A DNA stretch of 64,000 nt from assembly GCA_026003195.1 (NCBI GenBank), contig BPGU01000003.1:849086-913085 (forward strand), given 5' to 3'. Position 1 is the stretch's first letter, and the number at the start of each line of letters is the position of its first letter. Positions 44,114 through 57,937 of this stretch are shown one piece after another. Under the pieces are notes generated by a model. The model saw only the letters and a program-made list of their open reading frames with translations. It was not told the DNA's origin and did no database searches. The translations under genes were made by a program, and so were the position numbers. This DNA is from Armatimonadota bacterium. GTDB taxonomy: Bacteria > Armatimonadota > HRBIN16.

Positions 44114-46081
44114 ATGAACAGTCCAGGAGCCGGTGCGGAACTCGTCACACGCTCACCCACCGTTTCTGCCGATAGGGATACACTTCGTCAGCCGCCGGCA
44201 GGCGTTTCACTTCGCGCACTCCTGTTGGGTGTGCTGCTCATCCCTCTGAACGTGTACTGGGTGATCGTGGCGGAGCTGCGCTGGTACGCCATCCTCACGC
44301 TCAACCCGCTGTTTGTGACGCCGGTGTTCTACCTGTTTGTGCTGGTGCTTCTGAATGCCCTGTTGCGCCGACTGGCTCCGCGCTGGACGCTGAATCCGGC
44401 GGAGCTGGTGGTCATCTACCTGATGCTGGTGATGTCATGTACGGTCGCCACGCATGACTTTATCATCAACCTCATCTCTCTGATGGGATGGGCGCGGTGG
44501 TTTGCTACGCCGACAAACCGCTGGGAGGATACGCTGTTTCCACATCTGCCTCGCTGGCTACTTGTGTGGGATAAGGAGCTGCTAGAGGGCTTCTTTCAGG
44601 GCAACAGCACACTCTACCGCCTGGAGGTGCTGAGGATGTGGGCGGCTCCGCTGGCGTTCTGGAGCCTGTTCATCCTTATCGCGGGCTGGACGATGCTGTG
44701 CCTGAACACCCTTTTCCGCCGCGCATGGATGGACCAGACGCGCCTCTCCTTTCCCATCGTGCGCCTGCCCCTTGCGCTCACCGAGCCGTTCACTCCCGGC
44801 GCGATGATACGCACCCGTGCGCTCTGGCTGGGGTTTCTGGCAGCGGCGGGACTGGACCTGCTGAACGGCTTGCATGAGTGGTTTCCCAGCCTGCCGCACT
44901 TCCAAACGCGCGCGGTACCTATCCAGTTCACCCAACCCCCTTGGACGGCGGTGGGCTGGTTCGTGCGCACCTTTTATCCCTTCGCCATCGGACTGGCGTA
45001 TCTGGTGCCGCTGGACGTCTCTTTCTCGTGCTGGTTTTTCTATCTGTTCATCAAGGCGCAGATGGTGATCGGCTACCAGCTGGGCTACAGCAACATCCCC
45101 GATTTCCCCTACATGAGTGAACAGGGCATCGGGGCGTGGGTCACCTTTGGAGTGCTGCTCCTCTATGCCAGCAGGAGCTACCTGAAAGAGATTTTGATTG
45201 CCGCGTGGCGTGGTGACCGTTCGCTGGAGGCTGGAGAACCGCTGTCGTATCGTATGGCGCTGGTAGGCGCGGTGGTGGGGCTGGTGGCTTTCACGGGCTT
45301 CTGGTGGCTGGCAGGCATGAGCCTGCAGTGGGTGCTGCTGATGGTGGCGACCTATTTTCTGCTGGCGCTCTGCATCACGCGCGTGCGTGCAGAGGCGGGT
45401 GGGCAGCACACCGTGTGGGACCTCGAGCCGATTCGTCTCTTCCGCCTGTTCGACTCCACGCTAATGACCGCTCCCACGATGGCGGCTGCCGCGCTCAGTC
45501 ACTGGTTCTGGCGATTGAACCGCAGTCACATCATGCCCAGCCAGATAGAGGGCTTCAAACTGGCGCAGGAGCATGGCATCCCGCTGCGTCAGCTGGTGTG
45601 GCCGATCCTGCTTTCGCTCGCGCTGGCGACGGTGTTCGGGCAGTGGGCGTGCTTGCACGTGCTGTATCGCGAGGGCGCTCTGGCGAAATGTGCGGGGTTC
45701 GCGCAGTGGACAGGGTGGGAGAGTTTCAGCTGGCTGGAAGGAGCGCTCCACTCAGGCTTCAAGGCGGAGGTGAACCGCTGGGGAGTGGTGGGCGCTGCCA
45801 GTCTGTTCACGCTGTTCTTGTACGCCATGCGCACGCGCTTTGTGGGTTTCCCGTTCCATCCGCTGGGGTACTGCATCGGTCCGGGGCTGGTGTGGCTGTG
45901 GTTGCCGTTCTTCATCGCGTGGCTGGTGAAGTTTTTCGTGCTGCGCTACGGTGGGTTACGCATGTATCGGCGCACGCTGCCTTTCTTCCTCGGGCTGGTG
46001 CTGGGCGATTACACGATGGGCGCGCTATGGTCGTTGATTGGCGTCGTGTGGGGTGTGCCCACGCTGCAGATATTCCATTGA
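44114..46081 (+). CDS. Large polytopic membrane protein, DUF6785/DUF6784-like (paralogue)
   Basis: A 655-residue protein with about 14 hydrophobic segments and a ~35-residue cytosolic N-terminus, a clear paralogue of the 2233-4221 gene. Shared landmarks in the same order are 'NPAELVVIYLMLVMS', 'FPIVRLPLALT', 'DVSFSCWFFYLFIK', 'LALCITRVRAEAGG' and the C-terminal 'FLGLVLGDYTMGALWS'. The ATG at 44114 has a weak, distant GGAG. The repeated presence of this family with conserved Trp/His-rich membrane segments suggests transport or catalysis within the membrane, but no function is known. Confidence 0.85.
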   Translation: MNSPGAGAELVTRSPTVSADRDTLRQPPAGVSLRALLLGVLLIPLNVYWVIVAELRWYAILTLNPLFVTPVFYLFVLVLLNALLRRLAPRWTLNPAELVVIYLMLVMSCTVATHDFIINLISLMGWARWFATPTNRWEDTLFPHLPRWLLVWDKELLEGFFQGNSTLYRLEVLRMWAAPLAFWSLFILIAGWTMLCLNTLFRRAWMDQTRLSFPIVRLPLALTEPFTPGAMIRTRALWLGFLAAAGLDLLNGLHEWFPSLPHFQTRAVPIQFTQPPWTAVGWFVRTFYPFAIGLAYLVPLDVSFSCWFFYLFIKAQMVIGYQLGYSNIPDFPYMSEQGIGAWVTFGVLLLYASRSYLKEILIAAWRGDRSLEAGEPLSYRMALVGAVVGLVAFTGFWWLAGMSLQWVLLMVATYFLLALCITRVRAEAGGQHTVWDLEPIRLFRLFDSTLMTAPTMAAAALSHWFWRLNRSHIMPSQIEGFKLAQEHGIPLRQLVWPILLSLALATVFGQWACLHVLYREGALAKCAGFAQWTGWESFSWLEGALHSGFKAEVNRWGVVGAASLFTLFLYAMRTRFVGFPFHPLGYCIGPGLVWLWLPFFIAWLVKFFVLRYGGLRMYRRTLPFFLGLVLGDYTMGALWSLIGVVWGVPTLQIFH

Positions 46082-46173: not shown

Positions 46174-46815
46174 CTATGGGCGTATCGATATGCACTTGTG
46201 ATTTCTGTTCCATACGAGGAAGCTTTCACCATCGAATACCCCGGTCACTATCGTCTGTATCTCACCTGAGCACAGCAACAGGGAAAGAATGCTTGCGACT
46301 ATTTCCCCCTCTTGTGTCTTAGGTATCTTTGCCACGACTAGAAGTGCCGGAGGATACGCTACATCGACACCGTCGACCACCTCTTCTATCTGGCTAAGAG
46401 AAGCGTTCTCCCGGGCGTAGTAATAGAGTGTACCACCATAGGTGACGCGAATAGCTGGGTTGATTTGCGCCACGCATGGATCTGTTGGTAGGCAGAGCAG
46501 ATCTTCAGCGAGCAGAATAGCGGCAGCATGCTCACGCAACTTCCTGTGGAGATATCGTGCAAGCATCCGAGCAGGTTCTTGGCTGATCTCCATACTGCCG
46601 TCAGGCATGACGACACCTCCGATGACCCCGCCTTGGTCTAGCTTTTGAACACGATCCCTGGCAACACCATGCGGAACGTAGACGAAAGCAGACCCCTGCT
46701 GTAAACCGCATCGGTTCAACAGCGCCTTCATGTAGTCGCTGGCTCCAGCGATGCGACGTTCTATGTAGCCCAACGCCCAGCTTCCTACTGGTAGAGGTCG
46801 CAGGAGAGGTTTCAT
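46174..46815 (-). CDS. Unknown protein, candidate immunity protein for RHS tip E
   Basis: A 213-residue soluble protein with no signal peptide, no membrane helix and no recognised domain; it looks alpha/beta, with a hydrophobic strand pair in 'PALLVVAKIP' and 'SGEIQTIVTGVFDGESFLVW'. The ATG follows GAGGAG by seven bases. It lies directly downstream of the RHS tip with a toxin-like domain (46995-47509), the position normally held by an immunity gene, and has no other natural partner. The immunity role is inferred from position only. Confidence 0.55.
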   Translation of the reverse strand: MKPLLRPLPVGSWALGYIERRIAGASDYMKALLNRCGLQQGSAFVYVPHGVARDRVQKLDQGGVIGGVVMPDGSMEISQEPARMLARYLHRKLREHAAAILLAEDLLCLPTDPCVAQINPAIRVTYGGTLYYYARENASLSQIEEVVDGVDVAYPPALLVVAKIPKTQEGEIVASILSLLLCSGEIQTIVTGVFDGESFLVWNRNHKCISIRP

Positions 46816-46994
46816 CTATGTACTCCTCATCTAAGTTCCTCTCGTCAAAGGAGGATAGAGCCCCTATAATGTATGTTATCACATACAGTCCCCTTACAGA
46901 AAGAGAGAGGTACTGTCTTCCTTAAGAATAAAGACGTAAGAAGGAACAACACATTCCCTACAGTAAGTATCTACTCCTCGCTAGGTTTCGGAAT

Positions 46995-47509
46995 TCACAC
47001 CTTCGGCTTACCTCGTCCCGGACGGTAATCCACATGCGGACCGTATGGCGGCCCATGATCAAGGTCTGGGTGCACCGATTCCCCCGTGCTGGGGTTGTGC
47101 CATGCCCCCTCTTTTCCGCCCTCTGGAGGCTTCCCGCGCCATTCCCAACCTTCCCCCTTTGGCTTGCCAGTCCTCCAGTCAATGTCATCTTGTGTGATTC
47201 TCCGGATGAGATCGCTGAACTTATCGTAAGCCCAGATGAGTCCGATCGTAAGACCGACAACAATCGCTCCACCGATAGCTACCTCACGCAATCCGGGTAT
47301 GACCAGAGCAGGGGCCAACACTCCTAAGGCAGTTCGCCCACTCGGATCCACCGCGTTGACCGGGTCATGCTCGCAATACAGATACCGGTTCAACGACAGA
47401 GGGCGGTAGATGTTGCCCAGCCACTTGTCCGCGCTCGTCCACCGACCGACAACAGGATCATACCACCGCGCCCCGATAGACAGCAAGCCCGCATCGCCGT
47501 CGTCGCGGC
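46995..47509 (-). pseudogene. RHS core fragment E with toxin-like C-terminal tip
   Basis: The frame begins abruptly at ~47509 inside the RHS core ('RDDGDAGLLSIGARWYDPVV'), includes 'RYLYCEHDPVNAVDPSGR', then a hydrophobic segment and a C-terminal ~50 residues with 'GKEGAWHNPSTGESVHPDLD' and 'HGPPYGPHVDY'. That His/Asp/Pro-rich pattern resembles the polymorphic toxin domains placed at RHS ends (Ntox37-like, from memory). There is no start codon with a ribosome site; only a TTG at 47486 could serve. So it is a displaced tip, silent unless recombined onto a full-length RHS gene. Confidence 0.65.
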
Positions 47510-47549
47510 GCCATTATCCCAGATACCGCTTCGTTCCTATCTTCGACGA

Positions 47550-48746
47550 CTACAAATGCCCAACGCGCGTTAGCAAGCCGGGAAGAAACGTCAGATAGGC
47601 GTATGCCGCATATATCAGTCCTGAAAACCACAACTGTCTCAGTCGCTCGTAGACAATGATGCTGGCGAAAACCAAGATTGTCCACAGTGCGGAACCGGTA
47701 AGGTCGATGCCTTCTCCAGGCAACACTATAGCAAGGCTCAAGAAAACAGTCCAACCTACCGCTATCGCTGCGCCAAGCAGTCCCATCCGAGGCAATAAGT
47801 TACTACGTGCTTGTTCGTAGACGGTGCCAACAAACCACAAACTGAATATCGCCGAGGCGAGAGGAAGACCGAACGACAAATGGAGCACAGACTGAATAGT
47901 AATGTACTGCAGCACGCGCGGGATGTTCGTATTGACCACCGTCATATGGAGCCAAACCGCTTGATACAGCAGCACTCCCGCGCAAGCGATGGACGCTATC
48001 CCCAACAACCACCGTGGCACCGGCCACGTACAATCTGTATGAGTTCTGAAATACCTGCGCCGATAGAGCATCGTAATAGCCCAGATCCCACCCCAGAAGA
48101 CCAAATATGCCAGCAGCATGTAGGTATCCCTGTTTCCCTGTGCGCCGGGAATGGGTACTCCGAGCGTGATCCACGCAATGAAGAAGCTTGCAACCATGTA
48201 ACACACCCAAAGCAAAAGCATCGCGACCGCTTGCAGCACAGCCCAGCTTCCCATCCAGCGCTTCGCGAAGGCAGCGAAAACAACCATCACTAGTGAAGGA
48301 AGTATCAACCCGCCCACCCATTTCAGTATGTGTCTTTTGGGCAGTAACCGCCATGCTGATTGGTAGTTACCTTTTCGCCATTGTATTGCTGCGAGGGCTT
48401 CCATCGCCATACTACGCTGCTCTGGCGTGGATGGCTGACTGAGGATCTGCTCAAAAACCTGCTCCGCCTCGTCCAACCGCTTCAAGTCTATCAAACAGGA
48501 GGCTTTCATCCACAACAGGCTCCTATCTCCCGGATACTTCTGCAAAGCCTGCTCGGTCTGCCTGAGGAGTTCCCTCACATGAGAAGGTTTGGCACGCCCC
48601 AGTCGGTCATATCCCTCTTGGGACATCAGGCTTAATTGGTGAACCTCGGCGAAGAAGGTGTCTCCTGCGGCCGCTGTCGGCTGGCAGGTTCCTTGCCTGC
48701 ACATAAATAACATCACGGTTGCGAAAAGCAGTATCAGCCTGTGCAT
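47550..48746 (-). CDS. Signal-peptide, TPR-like, polytopic membrane protein; RHS tip D partner
   Basis: 398 residues from the ATG at 48746 (behind GAGGAG). There is a signal peptide (residues 1-22, ending TCQPTA), a helical TPR-like region (~30-125, 'QKYPGDRSLLWMKASCLIDL', 'LDEAEQVFEQILSQP'), then seven or eight membrane helices. Its 5' end overlaps the end of RHS tip D by 140 bases. It lies in the immunity position after tip D and just before the edge of RHS fragment E. A membrane immunity protein against a membrane- or periplasm-acting tip would fit; this is inferred. Confidence 0.6.
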   Translation of the reverse strand: MHRLILLFATVMLFMCRQGTCQPTAAAGDTFFAEVHQLSLMSQEGYDRLGRAKPSHVRELLRQTEQALQKYPGDRSLLWMKASCLIDLKRLDEAEQVFEQILSQPSTPEQRSMAMEALAAIQWRKGNYQSAWRLLPKRHILKWVGGLILPSLVMVVFAAFAKRWMGSWAVLQAVAMLLLWVCYMVASFFIAWITLGVPIPGAQGNRDTYMLLAYLVFWGGIWAITMLYRRRYFRTHTDCTWPVPRWLLGIASIACAGVLLYQAVWLHMTVVNTNIPRVLQYITIQSVLHLSFGLPLASAIFSLWFVGTVYEQARSNLLPRMGLLGAAIAVGWTVFLSLAIVLPGEGIDLTGSALWTILVFASIIVYERLRQLWFSGLIYAAYAYLTFLPGLLTRVGHL

Positions 48747-48957
48747 TCTTTTTCTCCTCATCGTCATCACCGTCCGCGGCATCCGGCAGGCGATCTTGGT
48801 CGCTGTTGCGTGCCGGGTCTATCCTGGGTAGTTCACCAGAGGGGGGCGTACAACCCGGCAAGGTTACCAACAGTACCGCAGCTGCTAGAAGCAGGAGCAC
48901 TGGCAGCCTCCCACTCGGATCCACCCTGTTGACCGGGGCGTGCTCGCAATACAGCGA
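48607..48957 (-). pseudogene. RHS core fragment D with short tip
   Basis: Only ~17 residues of the RHS core remain ('LYCEHAPVNRVDPSGR', edge at ~48957, five bases from the stop of the upstream gene). They are followed by a hydrophobic helix with 'LLVTLPGC' and an acidic region ('RLPDAADGDDDEEKKNAQA'). The last ~45 codons run through the start of the next gene in another frame and are probably not functional. No start codon. It is the shortest of the five fragments. Confidence 0.6.
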
Positions 48958-48961
48958 ACCA

Positions 48962-49246
48962 CTACAACATCCCCTTCCTGTCAAGATGTGCCATTATAAG
49001 GAGCGCCCACACACTTGCGACTGTTACCAAAAAAGCGGCTACTACATACAAGTCCGGTATCCAGCAGATACTAAGTAGCACAAAGGAGTTGCCAATAGCC
49101 AAGCACAGTGAGGAATTTCGGAACGCGGAGGATTTTCCGTATCCGGCAAGTCCTCTGCGTTCTCGGTACCAGCTGGCAAAGCTCAGTAGAGCCACGAACC
49201 AACCAATAACTGCAGATGCAGCACCTAACCATATTGTGTAGTCCAT
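48962..49246 (-). CDS. Small membrane protein, candidate immunity protein for RHS tip C
   Basis: 94 residues with three membrane helices separated by 'ASWYRERRGLAGYGKSSAFR'. The ATG at 49246 follows GGAGGAGG. A clear paralogue of the protein at 54323-54604, sharing 'ASWY.ERRG..GYG..S.FR...LCLAI.N'. It sits directly after RHS tip C, which also has hydrophobic helices, and ends five bases before RHS fragment D. Small multi-helix proteins often serve as immunity to pore-forming tips; that role is inferred. Confidence 0.65.
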   Translation of the reverse strand: MDYTIWLGAASAVIGWFVALLSFASWYRERRGLAGYGKSSAFRNSSLCLAIGNSFVLLSICWIPDLYVVAAFLVTVASVWALLIMAHLDRKGML

Positions 49247-49352
49247 GGTTTCCTCCTCCGGAACTTTCAGAATAGGCGTTCTGTACAGCATGTTTGATGT
49301 GCAGACCGCCACCTCGCTCGTGTCAACTATGACACCCGGCGAGAGGGCTAGC

Positions 49353-50200
49353 TCAGAGCTCTGCAATAACTATACACCCAGCGCCTGACGAGTCGTAAGG
49401 ATACGCTCGCCAGACTGGTGGTCGGTGGTACTTGGGATGGTCCGGCCACGGTATCTCACCATTGTACCAGCCTCGCTCTAACTCGTCGCGATACTGTTTC
49501 AGCTCCTCATCCGTTGGTGGAGGAACGTAATCTGGTCCCCTAGGCATCCAGTGATCAGCAATCCAGTCACCTATCATGTATCCCGCAATGCCGCCGCCAA
49601 CGATAATGAGGCCGAAGCCTGCTATTACCGCGATAGGAGGTTTCAGCACTGCAAAGAACGCTCCGATGCCAGCGAGAATAGCACCTGCTCCTAATAGCTG
49701 GTCTGCTCCCTCTACCTTATACCCACTCGGGTCCACCCACATCACCGGCTCATGCTCGCAATACAGATACGGGTGTTCAGAAAGCACCGCATCCCGACTG
49801 ATGAACCGCCCTGCCTGCGGGTCGTAATAGCGTGCCCCAACGTGCAGTAAGCCTGCATCGCCGTCATCGCGGTAGCCCCATGCGCCCGCAAAGCGATAGG
49901 GGTTCGCACTGTTGCCCCACTGAGCCACCGGGGTGCCAAACGCCTCGGTTGTCAACGTGCTGGTCACCGCTTGACTGCCGTCCACCGTCGCGCGGGTTGT
50001 GCCCAAGCCGTCTGCAAGCACCACCTCGCCGTTACGCGCCACCAGACTGTTGCCGTAACTGTATACGGCGGTGATACTGTTACCCTGCAACTCCAGCACG
50101 ATTCTACCACCGTCGTGCAGGAATTGGGTAGTGGTGCCGTTCACCGTGCGGGAGACGCGACGACCAGAGCGGAGACTGAAGCGCCCACCGCATCAACTAC
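49353..50200 (-). pseudogene. RHS core fragment C with hydrophobic tip
   Basis: The longest fragment, ~282 codons. RHS repeat core from ~50200 ('SRTVNGTTTQFLHDGGRIVL', 'DGLGTTRATVDG', 'TTEAFGTPVAQWGNSANPYR'), then 'GYRDDGDAGLLHVGARYYDP', 'RFISRDAVLSEHPYLYCEHE' and 'VDPSG'. The ~120-residue tip has two glycine-rich hydrophobic helices and a Pro/Trp/Tyr-rich end. There is no start with a ribosome site (the first GTG is at 50144). Its 5' edge lies ~10 bases from the stop of the TPR gene at 50210. It is ~88% identical in DNA to fragment A over the shared core, by eye. Confidence 0.75.
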
Positions 50201-50209
50201 TGTGGGAGA

Positions 50210-51589
50210 TTACAGATTCCCCCCCAGCAAAGCCTCCCTCATTTGCCGAACTTGTTCTGCCTGCTCGAGATGACCGTTGACAACCAGCAGATATTGGGTT
50301 AGCGTCAATAGCTTTCTCAGCCTGTCTCGAACCACCGCTTCAGAAGGATAGTAGCACCAGTCGGGAGAAGGCAGAGTTTGCCATGCCCTGGCAACGAAAT
50401 GCCTGGCTAATCGCAATCGCCGGCGGGTATAGTGCACACGAGCTACCTCCAGCAACGCCTCGATGTACTTGGGCGATTGGCGTAAGAGACGATGAAACGC
50501 GCGCAGCGCCTCTTTGTGGTCGCGTGTAGATATCAATTCGCCCCACCGCAACAGCGGAAACTCCTCCGATGGTGCCAGTTGATGCCATCGCGCGATATAA
50601 TGTATCTCTGCTTCGATATCCTTCGCATGAGCAGCACTCTCCGCCGCGTGAGCTAACAGCCAGCGTTCGCTCCATGCCCTCCAGTCGCCCAGCAAATGGT
50701 CGACATTCGCCGGAAGAGCACTTAAACGGGCAAAAGCCTGTTTATAGTCATGATTGTGTACCAGGTCCGTGATAGCATCGCATTGGCGAGACAGCTCCAG
50801 CAGATGCCTCACAAGCGCGTGGTCTATCGCCGACAACAAAGAGCTGGTGCTGAGATGATACTGAATGCGTGGTGAAAATGAGTCGCGGAGCCTGCGTAGA
50901 TAGCCATCGTCGTCACCCAACACTGCAATTCCCGCTTCTATCACATGGCGAGCCTGCTCTACTCTACCCGTCCACGCTAGGGCGGCAAAGGTTGCCTCAT
51001 AAAGTTCTTCGACCGTGATACGGACTATTGTTGCGCTCGGGTAATATATCCACTTTGGCTTTCTCAAAACTTGCCAGCTTTGGCGCGTAAACCGTATCAG
51101 GTCTCGGAGTGCTGCTTTGCAATCGGCAGACTGTTGCTGTGCCAGCGAATGGGTTCGCCGCAAGGCACACCGCGCCAACCACGTCCAACCCTCTATGGAG
51201 CGAGCGCATACACTGAGTAGTTGCCATAACTCCTGCTCTGCAGAGTGATAGTCGCCAGCCATGATCATGTCCTCAGCCAGCAGCAGTCTAGGCAGCAGAG
51301 CAGAAGGCTCGTGTTTGATCAGCTCCTTTCGCCACCGTAGGGCATGTTCCCAGTCTTCTGTTTCTTCACACCGTACTGCCAGACCATCCAAGGCATCAGC
51401 AATCACTTCTCTCGCATAAGGTGTGAAGCCCTCCCCTCCGCTTGCCAGAACAGAACGGGCTATTGACAAAGCGGACTCCGGATCGCCCCGGCTCAGGTAT
51501 TGCGATGCCTGCTCTAGAAGATGGGCGTTCTGCAAGCAGGTTCTAGCATTTTCAAAAGATACCACTTGTAGCCAGGCCAGATCGTTCAT
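50210..51589 (-). CDS. TPR-repeat protein in the RHS array, partner of tip B
   Basis: A 459-residue cytosolic protein without signal peptide or membrane helix, made of helical TPR-like repeats ('LSRGDPESALSIARSVLAS', 'TGRVEQARHVIEAGIAVLGD', 'SPKYIEALLEVARVHYTRRR', 'NGHLEQAEQVRQ'). The start has a weak ribosome site. It follows RHS tip B and ends ~10 bases before the edge of fragment C. By position it could be the immunity protein for tip B, though its size is unusual for that role; it could also be an unrelated gene caught between modules. Confidence 0.7.
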   Translation of the reverse strand: MNDLAWLQVVSFENARTCLQNAHLLEQASQYLSRGDPESALSIARSVLASGGEGFTPYAREVIADALDGLAVRCEETEDWEHALRWRKELIKHEPSALLPRLLLAEDMIMAGDYHSAEQELWQLLSVCARSIEGWTWLARCALRRTHSLAQQQSADCKAALRDLIRFTRQSWQVLRKPKWIYYPSATIVRITVEELYEATFAALAWTGRVEQARHVIEAGIAVLGDDDGYLRRLRDSFSPRIQYHLSTSSLLSAIDHALVRHLLELSRQCDAITDLVHNHDYKQAFARLSALPANVDHLLGDWRAWSERWLLAHAAESAAHAKDIEAEIHYIARWHQLAPSEEFPLLRWGELISTRDHKEALRAFHRLLRQSPKYIEALLEVARVHYTRRRLRLARHFVARAWQTLPSPDWCYYPSEAVVRDRLRKLLTLTQYLLVVNGHLEQAEQVRQMREALLGGNL

Positions 51590-51692
51590 GGTATGCTATC
51601 TTCCCTATGTTCTCCCTCCAGATCTATGGGAATCTTGGGTTATACGGAGATCCGCCCCAATAAGGTGGTTCGTTGTCTGGGATATTATGTGG

Positions 51693-52075
51693 TTACCGGT
51701 ACTTTGGTTTTGGACGTTTCCCTTTTCTGCCTCCGTCATCCCATTCCTCTTGGTCCTGCTTGGCCTCCTCCCGAGCTCGGCGTTTCTCCCTTCCGTGTAC
51801 TTTCTCACGCCACTTATCTGACCAATCATCGATACTATCGGCAATCTCCTTCACCACGATACCAATACCGACGATGATACCAACGCCGATAATAACCTCA
51901 CGCACCCCGGGTATTCAGAGACCAGGTAGTGCAGCAGGTGTATCCCCGCTCGGATCCACCCTGTTGACCGGCTCGTGCTCGCAATACAGATAGGGATGCT
52001 CCGAAAGCACCGCATCGCGGCTGATAAAACGCCCGACCTGCGGGTCGTAGTAGCGTACCCCGACGTGCAGTAGAG
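51693..52075 (-). pseudogene. RHS core fragment B, tip separated by an in-frame stop
   Basis: The core starts at ~52075 ('LLHVGVRYYDPQVGRFISRD', 'HPYLYCEHEPVNRVDPSG') with no start codon. After nine tip codons a TGA (51917-51915) stops translation, yet the same frame continues with 'IPGVREVIIGVGIIVG' and a basic, charged end ('GREKRRAREEAKQDQEEWDD', ending 'KPKYR'). The stretch after the stop lines up with tip E ('IPGLREVAIGGAIVVGL'), so the stop is a mutation within a once continuous tip. A GTG at 51905 could restart the 70-residue tip alone. Confidence 0.7.
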
Positions 52076-52094
52076 TTACGTCTACTATCTGAGG

Positions 52095-53435
52095 TCAGAG
52101 CATTGTTCCCATCATTCGCTGAAGCTCAACCCACGCCCAATCTGCTCTCGGTGGCCTTGCTATCCATCGGTTCGCCAGCATCTGCGCGTAGGTAACTGGA
52201 GGGACCGTTTCAAGTACCTTCTGAAAGCACGAACGAGCTTTATCCTCTTCACCTGCGATGTGATATAGCAACCCCTCAGCCAACTCCAACCTCACATGAG
52301 AACAAGCGAGTTCCACAAGCGGTTTGCATATGGTGACCAGAGCAAGACACTCACGCACGTCGCGTAATTGTACAGCAAACTGTATAGCAGCGGTCAGAAG
52401 CGGTATGGAGTGAGGTCGGTCTGCGAGAAGATTCCTGACCTTCTGCAACGCCTCAGCAGGGAAACCTGCCTGTGCTAGTTGGTGCGAGAAGGCTAATGCC
52501 TCCTCCACCTCTGGATGGGCATGCAGTGCTCTAGCTTCGTCAAGGCGTTCGCTCCACTGCCGTTCCAGCTCCAGCGCACCACCGAATAGACTCACCATGT
52601 GCGAGAGAGAAATTTGTTCATGGAACCTCGCTCTTGCGTAGCATTCTACCATATGACGCAGACCTTTTCGTTCAGCAACGAACGCGAGCAAGAGGGTTAC
52701 CCCGAGGTCTGCATAGCCTTTCGGTGCACTAGCTAAGTAGAAACTTCTCATGTCCATGCCGATGGAACGAAGAGAAGCAACGGCGCTATAGCGATGGACA
52801 TACCGAGGGGTATTGCTCCATATAATTGCCTGTCCCAAGGTGAATAGTCTATCGGGTATCTTCTGAACCGGTAGCAAAATGCACCTGCTCCCATGCAACA
52901 GATGCAGCGGTACAGCTTGTTGGAGGATACCGTCTGAGGTTACAGTGTTGTCTATAGGAACCGGAAGATAGACAAAGACGCATCTGAAAAGCGCCGACGC
53001 CACTCCAAAAGGCATACCGTCGGGGATCACGTAGATGCCAAGTACATGATGCCTGACAGGTATCCCGATTTCCTGATTCAGTCGCGACAAAATACAAGAG
53101 TACTCTTTTATTTCTTCGGGGTCAATGCACTCTTCAGCGCCGTCGAAGAACACTATCTCGCCGAAGTCTACGACCTGCCAGTGGCTGGCCCGAGAGCGAA
53201 TGTTGCTTACCAGCAAGATGAATTGTGCCGCGAACAGCAATACCACCCCTGCGCTCATCCATAAGAGCGTGGAGAGCATAACCGATTGCTTGAACATGAA
53301 CCATGACATAGACAGAGTTAATAGCAAAGCGGTGAGAACCGCAAAACGGGGCGGTTTAAGGAAGGCTGTGAATGCCAGCCGCCATAAAGTATGTTGTGGT
53401 AGACGTACCCTTGTTTTCCCTTGAGTGAATACCAT
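52095..53435 (-). CDS. Membrane/TPR-like protein in the RHS array, partner of tip A
   Basis: A 446-residue protein: a basic N-terminus, two membrane helices (residues ~30-75), a soluble domain, and a helical TPR-like C-terminal half ('AQAGFPAEALQKVRNLLADR', 'GEEDKARSCFQKVLETVPP'). The ATG at 53435 follows GGGAGG. It lies after RHS tip A and ends 20 bases before the edge of fragment B. The same plan (membrane helices plus TPR) appears in the protein at 47550-48746 and the TPR part in 50210-51589, so the three may be related in role. Immunity is inferred from position. Confidence 0.65.
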   Translation of the reverse strand: MVFTQGKTRVRLPQHTLWRLAFTAFLKPPRFAVLTALLLTLSMSWFMFKQSVMLSTLLWMSAGVVLLFAAQFILLVSNIRSRASHWQVVDFGEIVFFDGAEECIDPEEIKEYSCILSRLNQEIGIPVRHHVLGIYVIPDGMPFGVASALFRCVFVYLPVPIDNTVTSDGILQQAVPLHLLHGSRCILLPVQKIPDRLFTLGQAIIWSNTPRYVHRYSAVASLRSIGMDMRSFYLASAPKGYADLGVTLLLAFVAERKGLRHMVECYARARFHEQISLSHMVSLFGGALELERQWSERLDEARALHAHPEVEEALAFSHQLAQAGFPAEALQKVRNLLADRPHSIPLLTAAIQFAVQLRDVRECLALVTICKPLVELACSHVRLELAEGLLYHIAGEEDKARSCFQKVLETVPPVTYAQMLANRWIARPPRADWAWVELQRMMGTML

Positions 53436-53530
53436 CCTGAACCTCCCGTATTGCGGTACTCACGAGATATCGTTCGGGGACTTCACTCAATTGTAAAGTG
53501 CAGCCCCAACCCTAAAGTCCTTCAGATTCG

Positions 53531-53550
53531 GGGCGGAGATCGCTCCGCCC
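53531..53550. other. Strong hairpin between RHS tip A and its partner gene
   Basis: GGGCGGAG-ATCG-CTCCGCCC, a perfect 8-base-pair stem without a U tract, in the 237-base gap before the gene at 52095-53435. It may weaken read-through from tip A. Confidence 0.45.
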
Positions 53551-53672
53551 ATCACATACGCTCACGTTTCGAATGCGAAGCAACCTCTGCCCTTCTTTAC
53601 CGGTATTTGCTGTTTACCATGTGCTCTGTCGCTTATGGCTCAGCAAGCTTCTGTCTGTGCAACTGCGTAGCT

Positions 53673-54235
53673 TTAGGCTGCCGAACACCAGTCCTTCGGA
53701 CAGGGCCAGCAGGGATTGTCCGGATCCCTGATTATAAAGGGAAGCGGTGGATAAAGACGCGGTGGCATAGGAGCAAGCATCTTAGGTAAATCTTTGATCC
53801 TTTGCCACGTGTCATCCACGAACCCCTTAGCTTTTTGCCAGACTTCTTTGCCGAAATCCTTTATCCGCTCCCAAGGTGATGGATAGATAATCTTATTCCC
53901 TCTATGGTCGTATATCGGAGACTCGCGCGGCTCGGTAAACCAATGCCGGCCACGCTTTAATCCCTCCTCCATCAGCTTGATCAAGGAGTCTTGCCAGCTG
54001 TATCCACTCGGATCCACCCTGTTAACCGGCCCGTGCTCGCAATACAGATACGGATGCTCCGAAAGCACCGCATCCCGACTGATAAAACGCCCTGCCTGCG
54101 GGTCGTAGTAGCGTGCCCCGACGTGCAGCAAGCCCGCATCGCCGTCGTCGCGGTAGCCCCATGCCCCAGCGAAGCGGTAGGGGTTGGCACTGTTGCCCCA
54201 CTGAGCCACCGGGGTGCCAAACGCCTCGGTTGTGA
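53673..54235 (-). pseudogene. RHS core fragment A with Pro/Cys-rich tip
   Basis: The core opens at ~54235 ('TTEAFGTPVAQWGNSANPYR', 'GYRDDGDAGLLHVGARYYDP', 'HPYLYCEHGPVNRVDPSG'). The ~105-residue tip that follows is helical then Pro-rich ('SPWERIKDFGKEVWQKAKG', 'LAPMPPRLYPPLP') and ends with Cys-Trp-Pro-Cys and a final Cys. It has no membrane segment, unlike tips B, C, D and E. A GTG at 54209 could start translation but has no ribosome site. It lies ~90 bases after the small membrane-protein gene. Confidence 0.7.
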
Positions 54236-54322
54236 AGGTTTCAAGAACAACGTGCGAGGAAACCTACCTGCCAACCAACCATTTCTCCCTCTTCCTGTCC
54301 CTTCCAGACGCTCGAGACATCA

Positions 54323-54604
54323 TCAGGACTTACTCTTCCTCTCCAGATATACTGCGGATAGCAGCACCCACATCCCCCCGACAACCACAAAAAGACCTGC
54401 TAACCCGCGCAGTTCAGGGTTCCGAGTGCTGAATAACAGCAGGGTATTGGCAATCGCCAAACACAATATCGGCTTCCGAAACATGGACGCCCGCCCATAT
54501 CCCGACCTCCCCCTACGCTCTTGATACCAACTGGCGTAGCCCACCAGAGCAAGAAACCACGTGAACGCTACGCCTGCGATGATTATCCACGTAACAAAGC
54601 CCAT
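54323..54604 (-). CDS. Small membrane protein, paralogue of the 48962 protein
   Basis: 93 residues, three membrane helices, with 'YASWYQERRGRSGYGRASMF' between the first two; a paralogue of the 94-residue protein at 48962-49246. The ATG at 54604 follows GGGAGGGG. It lies upstream of RHS fragment A and downstream of the interrupted signal-peptide gene at 54769-54876. By analogy it may be the immunity gene of an RHS tip that has been lost from this spot. Confidence 0.7.
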   Translation of the reverse strand: MGFVTWIIIAGVAFTWFLALVGYASWYQERRGRSGYGRASMFRKPILCLAIANTLLLFSTRNPELRGLAGLFVVVGGMWVLLSAVYLERKSKS

Positions 54605-54768
54605 CGTCCCCTCCCTGTAGCTTCGTTATCTACGGTCTGGGCGCTACAGCTGATACCCATCGTTCGCGACAACCTGAGGTATCCTATCTCGCCCGGACGA
54701 GACCTGTGCTGGACGAGGTGGTGTTGACGAGGATAAGCCCTACAGAGGCAAGCGCGGAGAAAAGAGCA

Positions 54769-54876
54769 CTAGCGGTAATTACCCCCCCCCCCCCCCCCCG
54801 CATTAGTAAGCAGGAATACAGCAGAAAGCATCATAGCAAGGGGTTTGGTCACAAAACGTTTACGAACACGGTTCAT
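54769..54876 (-). CDS. Signal-peptide gene interrupted by a G18 tract
   Basis: The ATG at 54876 has a strong ribosome site (GAGGAGG, nine bases upstream). It encodes a signal peptide: basic 'NRVRKRF' and a hydrophobic core 'MMLSAVFLLTNA'. An 18-base G tract (54799-54782) follows at codon 26. With 18 G the frame stops after 35 residues. With 17 or 20 G it would continue 'VITASALFSALASVGLILVN' and end after 63 residues (17 G) at 54684. The start may be the remnant 5' end of the RHS gene whose tips lie downstream; that link is inferred. Upstream, 54877-55040 looks like a promoter region. Confidence 0.5.
   Translation of the reverse strand: MNRVRKRFVTKPLAMMLSAVFLLTNAGGGGGGNYR
54782..54799. repeat. 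C18/G18 homopolymer tract
   Basis: Eighteen consecutive C on the plus strand, i.e. G on the coding strand, inside the short gene starting at 54876. Tracts this long change length by slipped pairing during replication. It is also a place where sequencing or assembly can err. Confidence 0.85.
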
Positions 54877-55046
54877 GACGTTGTTCCTCCTCACTGAGAT
54901 GTGCTGGCAGAGATACCAGCGTTGTCTTCCGCCTTCTATATATAGAAAGATCCGTGCCACAGAAGGCACTAAAACGATTCAGTATTCGCAAAATTCACGG
55001 TTTTTCAGCGAGAATTGCTTGAAAAGAACAGATTGGAAAAGCAAAA

Positions 55047-55100: not shown

Positions 55101-56846
55101 TTACTTGCCCGGCTTTTCGTCTTCGGGCACTTCGGGCGGCGGCTGCAAGGGCAGGCGGAAGTAGAAGGTGGAGCCTTTGCCTTCCTCACTCTCCACCCAG
55201 ATAGTGCCGCCGTGCCGCTCCACCAGGTGTTTCACCAGGAACAGCCCGATGCCCGTGCCGCCAGCCTCGCGCGTGTCGCGGTTGTCCACACGGTGGAACC
55301 GCTCGAAAATCTTGGGCAGATGCTCTTTCGGGATGCCGATGCCCTGGTCACTGACGCTGATGAGCACCGTCTCGCCTTCTAGCACACCCTTCACGCGCAC
55401 CTCTCCACCACGCGGCGAGTACTTGATGGCGTTGTTGATCAGGTTGGTCAGTATCTGGTCCACCTTGTCCTCGTCCGCGATGATAGTGGGGAAGTCCTCC
55501 GGGAAGTCCAGGATAATCTGGTGCTTGGTGGTGTACGACCGTTGGATAGTGGCGACGCGATCCGCCAGGGAGGGCAGGTCGATGGGTTTGGGGTTGAGTT
55601 GCAACGCTCGTCCCGATTCGATGCGCGACACGTTCAGCAGGTCGTCGATCAGCCTCTTCAGGCGGTCGGTCTCGGTGTCGATAATCTGCAGGAACTCGCG
55701 CTGTGTCTCACGGTCATAGAAGCCTTCCGTATCCTGCAGCAGGGTGGACACGAATCCCTTGATGGAGGTAAGCGGTGTGCGCAGCTCGTGCGAGACCGTC
55801 GAGACGAAGGCGGTTTTCATGCGCTCCACGTTGCGGATTTCGGTGATGTCGCTGAAGATAGCCACCGCGCCGATGAGGTCGTTCTCTTCATCACCGCGTA
55901 CGATGGCTGCCTGTACCTGAAAGATTCGCTCCGCCTCGCTTTCGTGGTCTTTTACGGAGATTTCGGCAGTGCCTTCGTTCTTTTCGGTGAGTGCGCCTTC
56001 AAACAGCTCGCGCACCTTATCGATATGGATGACTTCCTTATAGGGTTTGCCGATAACGTTCTCGCCGTTTTGGATGCCGAAGATACGCCGTGCGGAGGCG
56101 TTCATCTGCGTGATGCGCTCGTGCTTGTTCACCATTACCAGCCCAGCATAGAGGCTCTCGATGGTATGCACCAGTTCCTCTTTTTCTTCCACGACCTCGC
56201 GGTACATCTGCGCGCTGACGATGACCGCGGCAGCGTTGCGGGCGAGACGTTCCAGCAGGCGCACGTCCTCATCGATGAAGGTGCCGCCGTAACGCTTGTT
56301 GAACACGTGCACCACACCGATAGTGATGCGGTCGATAACGCGGTTCTCTTCATCGCGCTTTTCCACAATCAGCGGTGCGCTGACACCGTTGCGAATGCGC
56401 AGCAGTGCTACATGTTCCTGCAGGGTGCGAGGGTCGTTGACCGCATCGTGGAAGATAATCGGCTGCGACGAGCGAAAGACCTCTCCGCTGATACCCTGGG
56501 TGGCCCGCACGCGGAAGCTACGGATCTCATCATCGGTGAGACCGAAGGCGGGACGCACCGCGTACAGTTCGCCGCTTTCACGGTCAAAGAGCATGAAGAC
56601 GCACTTTTCCGCCTGCAGAATCATGGCGATGCGATGTACCAGGCGTTTGAGGGTCTCCTCGAACTCGGTGATAGCCGTAGGGGTTTCTACTGTCTCGGCA
56701 GTACTGCGATATTTCTGTTCCAGTTCTCGATAGCTGCGCTGTAGCTCTTGCAGATCGCGCTCCAGCTTCGCGATATATCTGTCCTTCTCCTCCAGACTTT
56801 TCTGGAGTGCCTCTATTTGTGAGCGCAGTTGAAACACGTTGTCCAT
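55101..56846 (-). CDS. GAF-PAS histidine kinase
   Basis: A 581-residue soluble sensor kinase. Domains: a coiled coil (residues ~5-50), GAF (~60-215), a second coiled coil and PAS (~228-340), HisKA with phospho-His 353 in 'STVSHELRTPLTSIKGF', and HATPase (~450-565) with 'NLINNAIKYSPRGG', 'SDQGIGIPKEHLPKIFERF' and 'GTGIGLFLVKHLVERHGG'. There is no membrane helix, so it senses a cytosolic signal. The ATG at 56846 follows AGGAGAGG; the longer open frame upstream is not conserved. It is the last gene of the cheW-cheA-HDOD-kinase group; its response regulator is not here. Confidence 0.93.
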   Translation of the reverse strand: MDNVFQLRSQIEALQKSLEEKDRYIAKLERDLQELQRSYRELEQKYRSTAETVETPTAITEFEETLKRLVHRIAMILQAEKCVFMLFDRESGELYAVRPAFGLTDDEIRSFRVRATQGISGEVFRSSQPIIFHDAVNDPRTLQEHVALLRIRNGVSAPLIVEKRDEENRVIDRITIGVVHVFNKRYGGTFIDEDVRLLERLARNAAAVIVSAQMYREVVEEKEELVHTIESLYAGLVMVNKHERITQMNASARRIFGIQNGENVIGKPYKEVIHIDKVRELFEGALTEKNEGTAEISVKDHESEAERIFQVQAAIVRGDEENDLIGAVAIFSDITEIRNVERMKTAFVSTVSHELRTPLTSIKGFVSTLLQDTEGFYDRETQREFLQIIDTETDRLKRLIDDLLNVSRIESGRALQLNPKPIDLPSLADRVATIQRSYTTKHQIILDFPEDFPTIIADEDKVDQILTNLINNAIKYSPRGGEVRVKGVLEGETVLISVSDQGIGIPKEHLPKIFERFHRVDNRDTREAGGTGIGLFLVKHLVERHGGTIWVESEEGKGSTFYFRLPLQPPPEVPEDEKPGK

Positions 56847-57034
56847 AAGCGACCTTTTCCTCTCCTGCTTCTGTACGGATGGTTCCTCTGCACCGAAAGG
56901 ATTATAACATACAGCCTTTAGGACTGCAACCCGAGCGGTCTTCAGCCTCTTCGCGATGTGCGTAGAGGGGTGTTGCCACCAATCCATTAGGCGGTGTCCC
57001 CTGTAAAATAGTTCCACAAAGGAGGCTTTCCGGG

Positions 57035-57937
57035 CTACGGAGATTGAAGGATATGCAAAAAGTCTCTCGCAGCGTCCATCTGCATTTCCACCTCGCGCCG
57101 ACACCAGCTCCACGAGTTTCCATCCAGCTGGAAGACCTCACAGAGGGAGGCGGGCAGCTCCGGCATCTGTTCGGCAGGCTCCTCAGCAGCGATGCTTTGG
57201 GACACCCGGTCACCCAGGTACACTGCACCCACCTGGTGGAAGAAGGGGCTATCTTCTATCGGATTGTGATGGTGCCGCATCACCTCCGCGAAGACAGGAG
57301 GAAGATTCCAGTACTCCACCATTCTCGCGCCGACTTCTGTGTGGGTGATTCCCAGCAGCTCTTGCTCTACCGGGCTGGCTGCCTCGATAGAGCCACACCG
57401 TTCGATGACAGCCCGGTACTCTGTAGGAAAGTTCTGGCTCAGGAACAGAATGCCCAAGTCGTGCAACAGACCCGTGAGGAACATCTCCTCGCGCGTGATC
57501 AGGTCCTTGCGCAGGTGCTTGGCAAACGCAGAGGCTGCCAGCCCTGTCTCTAGAGAATGCTCCCAGAACCGTTGCCGGTTGATCGGGGAACTGGCGCCTT
57601 GTCGCAGAAGCAGACGCACGGCAGCGACGCCTATCGCCAGATTGCGGATGGTCTCAAAGCCCAGCAGAATCACCGCATGGGAAAGCGTGGTAATGCGTCG
57701 GGGGAAGCCGTATCTCGCCGAGTTCACCAGACGCAAGACCTTCGAGGAAAGCACCTCGTCCATGCTGATCACTTTCTGTAGCTCCTGCACCCCGCAGTTC
57801 GGGTCGTTGGTCATCTCCATCACCCGGGTGATGACCGCCGGCATAGGAGGCAGACTCTCCAGGCTCTCGCGGATGGCTTCCTCCAGGTGTTGGGTAACGA
57901 TGCTACTGGATGCCTGCATGTAAGACAGCTCTGCCAT
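57035..57937 (-). CDS. HDOD domain protein
   Basis: A 300-residue protein filled by a HDOD domain (residues ~20-220, 'LESLPPMPAVITRVMEMTND', 'VISMDEVLSSKVLRLVNSA', 'LLHDLGILFLSQNF', 'ITHTEVGARMVEYWNLPPVF') plus a C-terminal ~60 residues. Several HD-type His/Asp residues remain ('HDLG', 'RHHHNP'), but activity is doubtful, as HDOD proteins usually act by binding. The ATG at 57937 follows GAAAGGAG. Located between cheA and a histidine kinase, 25 bases after cheA, it is probably part of the same signalling output. Confidence 0.92.
   Translation of the reverse strand: MAELSYMQASSSIVTQHLEEAIRESLESLPPMPAVITRVMEMTNDPNCGVQELQKVISMDEVLSSKVLRLVNSARYGFPRRITTLSHAVILLGFETIRNLAIGVAAVRLLLRQGASSPINRQRFWEHSLETGLAASAFAKHLRKDLITREEMFLTGLLHDLGILFLSQNFPTEYRAVIERCGSIEAASPVEQELLGITHTEVGARMVEYWNLPPVFAEVMRHHHNPIEDSPFFHQVGAVYLGDRVSQSIAAEEPAEQMPELPASLCEVFQLDGNSWSWCRREVEMQMDAARDFLHILQSP

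Follow-up and report, generated by a model that had tools for sequence, protein, structure and literature searches.

Organization of the RHS locus

The window, a stretch of 64,000 nucleotides from an Armatimonadota bacterium (contig BPGU01000003.1, positions 849,086 to 913,085), carries on its minus strand five RHS-core fragments (47508-54239) that pass through a common hinge and then diverge completely, and a different intact gene lies behind each of them (Table 1). An earlier note on this DNA had described the five fragments and their five different followers, and both points were borne out. Read along the minus strand from 54876 to 46174, the order is about 190 bp of the 5' end of a parent RHS gene, a tipless partner gene (F) and modules E, D, C, B and A, where E is the first on this strand and the nearest to the parent 5' end and A is the last. 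Each of the modules E to A consists of the end of an RHS core, the hinge, a tip and a partner gene. The parent 5' end (54876 to about 54690) and partner F were absent from the earlier note. The stop codon of the preceding partner lies about 83 (E), 22 (D), 39 (C), 6 (B) and 41 bp (A) from the core edge, so that distances of 90, 20, 5 and 40 bp reported before were close to those measured, but the third (10 bp given, 39 found) was not.

When the five cores were aligned as DNA, a check that had been proposed with the first description, they were 70-92% identical in pairwise comparisons, and three of the fragments matched the Rhs_assc_core model TIGR03696 above its cut-off (5e-14 to 3e-17). The tips, in contrast, are mutually unrelated, the 60-71% obtained in loose global DNA alignments being the level of unrelated sequence. 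The GC content is 63% in the cores, 54% in the tips, 53% in the partners and 58.5% in the window. In agreement with the claim that the fragments lack a start codon with a ribosome site, inspection of the upstream sequence revealed no evident start and ribosome site at the edge of any of the five, whereas five of the six partners have a purine-rich site ahead of their ATG; partner B starts inside tip B. The frames of all six partner genes are intact. Judging from the sequence, tips A, B and D appear to be broken or truncated, since two stop codons lie within tip D, tip B continues, out of frame, into the partner gene and tip A is cut short. Tips C and E have open frames.

Table 1. Features of the RHS locus and its flanks in minus-strand order. 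Core edges and hinge ends were placed by DNA comparison with relatives; hinge ends are approximate.
Feature	Position	Strand	Core edge to hinge end	Description
Left flank	55101..57113	-		Sensor histidine kinase gene; adjoins the 655-aa gene in G002, G009 and G004
Sigma-54-like promoter element	54944..54959	-		TGGCACG-N4-TTTCT, degraded -12 element; consensus match only
Parent RHS 5' leader	54690..54876 (54690 approximate)	-		MNRVRKRFVTKPLAMMLSAVFLLTNA, followed by a run of 18 G (54782-54799) and the beginning of the mature RHS segment (VITASALFSALASVGLILVNTTSS)
Partner F	54323..54604	-		93-aa membrane protein without its tip; two predicted membrane segments; 43% identical to partner C
Fragment E	53676..54239	-	54239-54004	Core and 109-aa tip; TIGR03696 E=2.7e-15
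Partner E	52095..53435	-		446 aa; membrane segments at the N-terminus, weak TPR; a single marginal relative within the phylum
Fragment D	51620..52072	-	52072-51945	Core and tip; two in-frame stops in the tip when compared with its G001 relative
Partner D	50210..51589	-		459-aa TPR protein; TPR_19 5.6e-10
Fragment C	49356..50170	-	50170-49722	Longest core and 122-aa tip with two hydrophobic segments; TIGR03696 3.1e-17
Partner C	48962..49246	-		94 aa; three predicted membrane segments
Fragment B	48640..48955	-	48955-48910	46-bp core remnant and tip whose frame enters the partner gene
Partner B	47550..48743	-		397 aa; TPR, then about eight membrane segments; TPR_19 2e-6, above curated cut-off
Fragment A	46998..47508	-	47508-47338	Core of a second subtype and 113-aa Ntox37-like tip
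Partner A	46174..46815	-		213 aa; no known domain
Right flank	44114..46081	+		Gene for 655-aa multi-pass membrane protein; orthologues in 8 congeners, 89-96%

Four of the five tips matched no toxin family, and no usable hit to Pfam or NCBIfam was obtained for tips C, D and E. Tip A matched Ntox37 (PF15535) weakly (14.5 bits, E=0.055), below the curated cut-off of 27.8, and its homologue in another family of the phylum (L157) reached 22.9 bits (E=1.3e-4), so that tip A may be called Ntox37-like only, with the end of the domain apparently missing. Among the partners of this RHS group, TPR repeats were found in at least 7 of 40, ankyrin repeats in 3 and HEAT repeats in 2, and all three are listed among immunity types (PMC3482391). 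For partner A, a structure predicted together with four homologues had a mean pLDDT of 34, too low to be of use. By analogy with the orphan modules of Poole 2011 (PMC3150448), the partners are probably immunity proteins and the tips would be toxic, although the size of about 400-460 aa that some partners reach is large for an immunity protein, which counts against this reading.

The 655-aa membrane protein of the right flank belongs to an unusually large paralogous family, with about 17 copies in the genome of the window (G000) and 9-17 in each congener.

The parent leader and its G-run

No full-length RHS gene is left in the window, as had been noted before, and of the parent only the 5' leader remains. 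Leaders 85-92% identical to it open full-length RHS genes in four congeners (G005, G001, G002 and G007). An intact body of this family was not found elsewhere in G000 either, where the body search gave array fragments and relatives that are only 33-34% identical, the level at which the other RHS families of this genome are related to the lost one. Since the parent leader and the tipless partner F have both been kept, the RHS body must have been deleted, and partner F presumably conferred immunity to the last tip that the parent carried. Modules without a detected body also occur in G003, G004, G006 and G009, several of which are fragmentary metagenome-assembled genomes (MAGs), so that an intact body is missing from five of the nine genomes with such modules; because all of the named relatives are MAGs, gaps in the assemblies could account for part of the missing bodies, although G000, in 29 contigs, has a completeness rating of 100%. 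A further internal loss is seen in G006, where the leader is fused directly to a late part of the core.

The 18-G run of the window leader is the longest in G000. Nine leader copies were compared (window 54782-54799, L094 1627-1635 and L145-L154), and their G-runs measure 6, 6, 6, 9 and 18 in the clade of G000, G001 and G005, and 7 and 10, with two interrupted forms, in that of G002 and G007; within each clade the clean lengths differ by multiples of three. The leader ATG was considered as the start of the RHS frame and was rejected, being out of frame in all nine copies with a readable G-run. In the G000/G001/G005 group a second ATG immediately before the G-run opens the RHS frame, and in the G002/G007 group a start for this frame was not seen. 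The G-run could possibly act as a phase switch, through an overlapping start or through slippage, a guess about an activity that consensus assemblies cannot show.

Other G-runs occur at RHS loci, which hold about 6 of the 24 distinct runs of at least nine G in G000. An unrelated RHS gene on contig C21 has 12 G in frame after its signal peptide (L165 8718-8729), and runs of 9 G follow signal peptides in TPR genes that precede three other RHS genes. The runs seen directly behind signal peptides at the 5' ends of RHS loci other than that of the window measure 9-12 G (L165 as above, L031 16997, L032 16449, L033 11576 and L034 11270). Separately, two near-identical promoters have ten G within a 17-bp spacer (TTGACA-CGGGGGGGGGGACAGAG-TAGAAT; L037 594-603, and L069 at contig C1 920383), and they are possibly phase-variable.

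The G001 relative has the exact TGGCACG-N4-TTGCT, where the sigma-54-like element of the window has a degraded -12 element. The assignment of the window element is weak, because the window has 3 such matches and 1.3 are expected. Sigma-54-like elements (TGGCACG-N4-TTGC and near forms) were observed upstream of RHS genes, before the leader in L153 and in the 5' regions of L031 and L032.

Insertion site, cassettes and tip-partner linkage

In G002, G009 and G004 the histidine kinase and 655-aa membrane protein genes are adjacent without RHS sequences, and they thus present an empty site. In G005, the closest congener compared, an RHS island with a full-length RHS frame occupies the same site; the island further contains two displaced modules that are complete, a partner without a tip and a scrap of core. 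No tip of the window was found in the G005 island, whose tips are entirely different. An insertion sequence (DDE transposase) lies within the tip region of the full-length RHS gene of G005 (L094 4586-5707).

One cassette of the G005 island is also present in a different array, on contig C4 of G000 (tip 98% and partner 97% identical, with 94% identity over the first 151 bp past the partner), which indicates that cassettes move between loci. A core of the C4 array that bears an unrelated tip shares 95% DNA identity with core A. Core A represents a second core subtype (SADKW...), other than that of cores E, D and C, and shows 92.6% DNA identity to the parent body at the orthologous locus of G005. 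On sequence grounds, these data fit with module A being the oldest, displaced before the parent gained the other core type. A model of circle integration predicts inherited junctions between a partner and the next core; such junctions were common only to near-identical cassettes (L094/L037 and L031/L032), and this was not so for cassette D of the window.

The comparison of tips with related genomes, which the earlier note had also proposed, showed that three tips recur with their partners. Tip A is 80% identical to a tip of G009, behind which the partner is 64% identical; the values are 43% and 53% for tip and partner B in G002 (L090), and 70% and 69% for tip and partner D in G001 (L092). Cassette D and L092 share 72% DNA identity over 1,878 bp, and the alignment stops at the stop codon of the partner. 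The tip attached to a full-length RHS protein of G002 shows 34% identity to tip C, and the gene behind this G002 tip scored z=3.6 to partner F and 0.2 to partner C, which is only suggestive of a direct link. Tip E had no relative among 291 genomes of the phylum, and linked relatives of tip E and partner E were not found there. In a set of 95 modules that come from this genus and, in addition, from the relative G042, and in which some partners were wrongly picked by the automatic rule, 23 of 72 cross-locus pairs with homologous tips had homologous partners, compared with 6 of 3,368 other pairs (Fisher p about 2e-35, an indication of effect size only, since the pairs share lineages and are not independent). 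Many of the 49 discordant pairs have in common only the short hydrophobic start of the tip. Between species, the partners showed dN/dS values of 0.125 (A), 0.194 (B) and 0.157 (D), which are no proof of selection in the silent state because they span the time since the species split, when some copies stood behind active genes.

Taken together, the co-inheritance of tips and partners, the empty site in three congeners and the orthologous island of G005 with its full-length body and different tips support the displacement of cassettes, that is, the insertion of tip plus partner by recombination in the shared core that had been proposed from the window. A genome with no RHS gene carrying the hinge and no matching tips elsewhere had been named as evidence against that proposal. 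No intact RHS gene of G000 carries the hinge, but counterparts of the tips and partners exist elsewhere, and there they are linked.

Origin and present role of the modules

The suggestion that such an array is undescribed is not supported, because long arrays of dissociated rhs tips were reported in Enterobacteriaceae by Jackson 2009, who named the process C-terminal displacement (PMC2935791), and Poole 2011 described orphan modules without translation starts, whose immunity genes are expressed and whose toxins work once attached (PMC3150448). As in the arrays of Jackson 2009, fragments of the core that differ in length but share one hinge follow each other on a single strand of the window, and their tips are unrelated; the fragments mostly lack starts, which the partners have, and some contain stop codons; and the GC-rich core contrasts with the GC-poor tip known from enterobacterial rhs genes, cores within a locus being nearly alike (PMC2935791). 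Unlike those arrays, which lie downstream of an intact rhs gene, that of the window has no parent body but only its leader, combines two core subtypes and belongs to a different phylum. A full-length body stands at the orthologous locus of G005, and we read the missing parent as a secondary loss, the window array deriving from a complete locus rather than being one.

Orphan rhs-CT/rhsI and cdiA-CT/cdiI modules, as described in Poole 2011 (PMC3150448) and Koskiniemi 2014 (PMC3967940), resemble the modules of the window in that tip and downstream gene form a unit, the tip is startless and the partner expressible, and the same tip is found on full-length genes in other strains. They differ in that function was established there by experiment and would follow here by analogy, and in that the partners of the window are mostly repeat-solenoid or multi-pass membrane proteins, several of them of at least about 400 aa. 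The locus also shares with the polymorphic toxin systems of Zhang 2012 the RHS repeats, a Sec-type signal, variable C-terminal domains and, presumably, downstream immunity genes. That catalogue includes Ntox37, Imm-HEAT, ankyrin and TPR, but for the majority of the tips and partners of the array it has no matching family (PMC3482391).

We consider it highly probable that the locus is an RHS island with displaced tip-plus-partner modules, that the parent body was deleted later and that the partners are most likely retained immunity genes. An RHS island would have entered between the histidine kinase and membrane protein genes in hot-spring Armatimonadota of the HRbin16 genus, and repeated recombination in the shared core would have given the parent gene new C-terminal tips, each with its own partner. 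Every such event would move the previous module of core end, tip and partner downstream, where the displaced tip would be silent for want of a start. A later deletion, from just past the leader to just before the last partner, would then have removed the parent body and left the leader with its G-run, tipless partner F and modules E, the youngest, to A, the oldest. The partners would most likely still guard the cell against neighbours bearing the same tips. This order of events and the retention for immunity are what we infer from the arrangement.

That a single RHS gene was copied in tandem, that its copies decayed into the five fragments and that the neighbouring genes are unrelated to them is very improbable, because the similarity of the repeated cores, which it would explain, is accompanied by tips that are mutually unrelated, and the linkage and the recurrence of cassettes A, B and D with the same partners contradict it. 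Rather unlikely, but the best placed of the alternatives, is that the locus is neutral debris of a dead RHS gene in which neither tips nor partners are now under selection. The deleted parent, the broken tips, the degraded -12 promoter element and a leader that ends shortly past its G-run all agree with decay; nevertheless, six of six partner frames are intact, five of them with a plausible ribosome site, the partners are conserved between species (dN/dS 0.13-0.19), and at least four other congeners likewise retain modules without a detected body.

The role of the modules as a store of toxin tips, which the earlier note had put forward, is doubtful for this array and we regard it as unlikely. 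Such a store has been discussed for orphan CDI and RHS modules (PMC3150448), tips C and E are open reading frames, and the intact bodies of the family in G005, G001, G002 and G007 mean that a body could be regained by gene transfer. However, G000 contains no body of this type to take up a tip, its other RHS families being too distant to offer a local acceptor, and three of the five tips look broken while all partners are intact, tip A in particular lacking the end of its Ntox37-like domain. With an acceptor gene missing from G000, the pattern is better explained by immunity that has been retained than by a store of toxins, and the apparently broken tips together with the missing start sites make retained immunity the likeliest present role.

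The process itself was known from Jackson 2009 and Poole 2011; its occurrence in this phylum, an array without its parent and a leader with a poly-G run are new. No relevant paper came up when the literature was searched for Armatimonadetes together with rhs. The locus extends RHS C-terminal displacement to hot-spring Armatimonadota, with empty and orthologous occupied sites available for comparison. It also offers a case in which the weapon was lost and the partner genes were kept, and it thereby allows one to ask why orphan modules are kept; partners that stay intact although there is no body to be reloaded would speak for immunity as the simpler reason. As a speculation to which we give little weight, parentless arrays might be a stable end state in this genus, immunity banks that outlast a costly delivery gene, with the surviving parents switched by the G-run behind the leader.

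At least three further RHS families are present in G000 (L036 on contig C12, L035, L031, L032, L033 and L040), several of which form arrays with modules in duplicate (Tox-REase-7, Tle3-like lipase) or lie downstream of intact genes of 1,317-1,349 aa. Toxin domains recognised on RHS tips elsewhere in this genome include Tox-REase-7, a nuclease (5.9e-23), and the phospholipase-like Tle3 (8.9e-10). The RHS loci on contig C1 (1-13000) and contig C9 (15000-28000) look identical (L033 and L034), as a duplicate or an assembly copy would.
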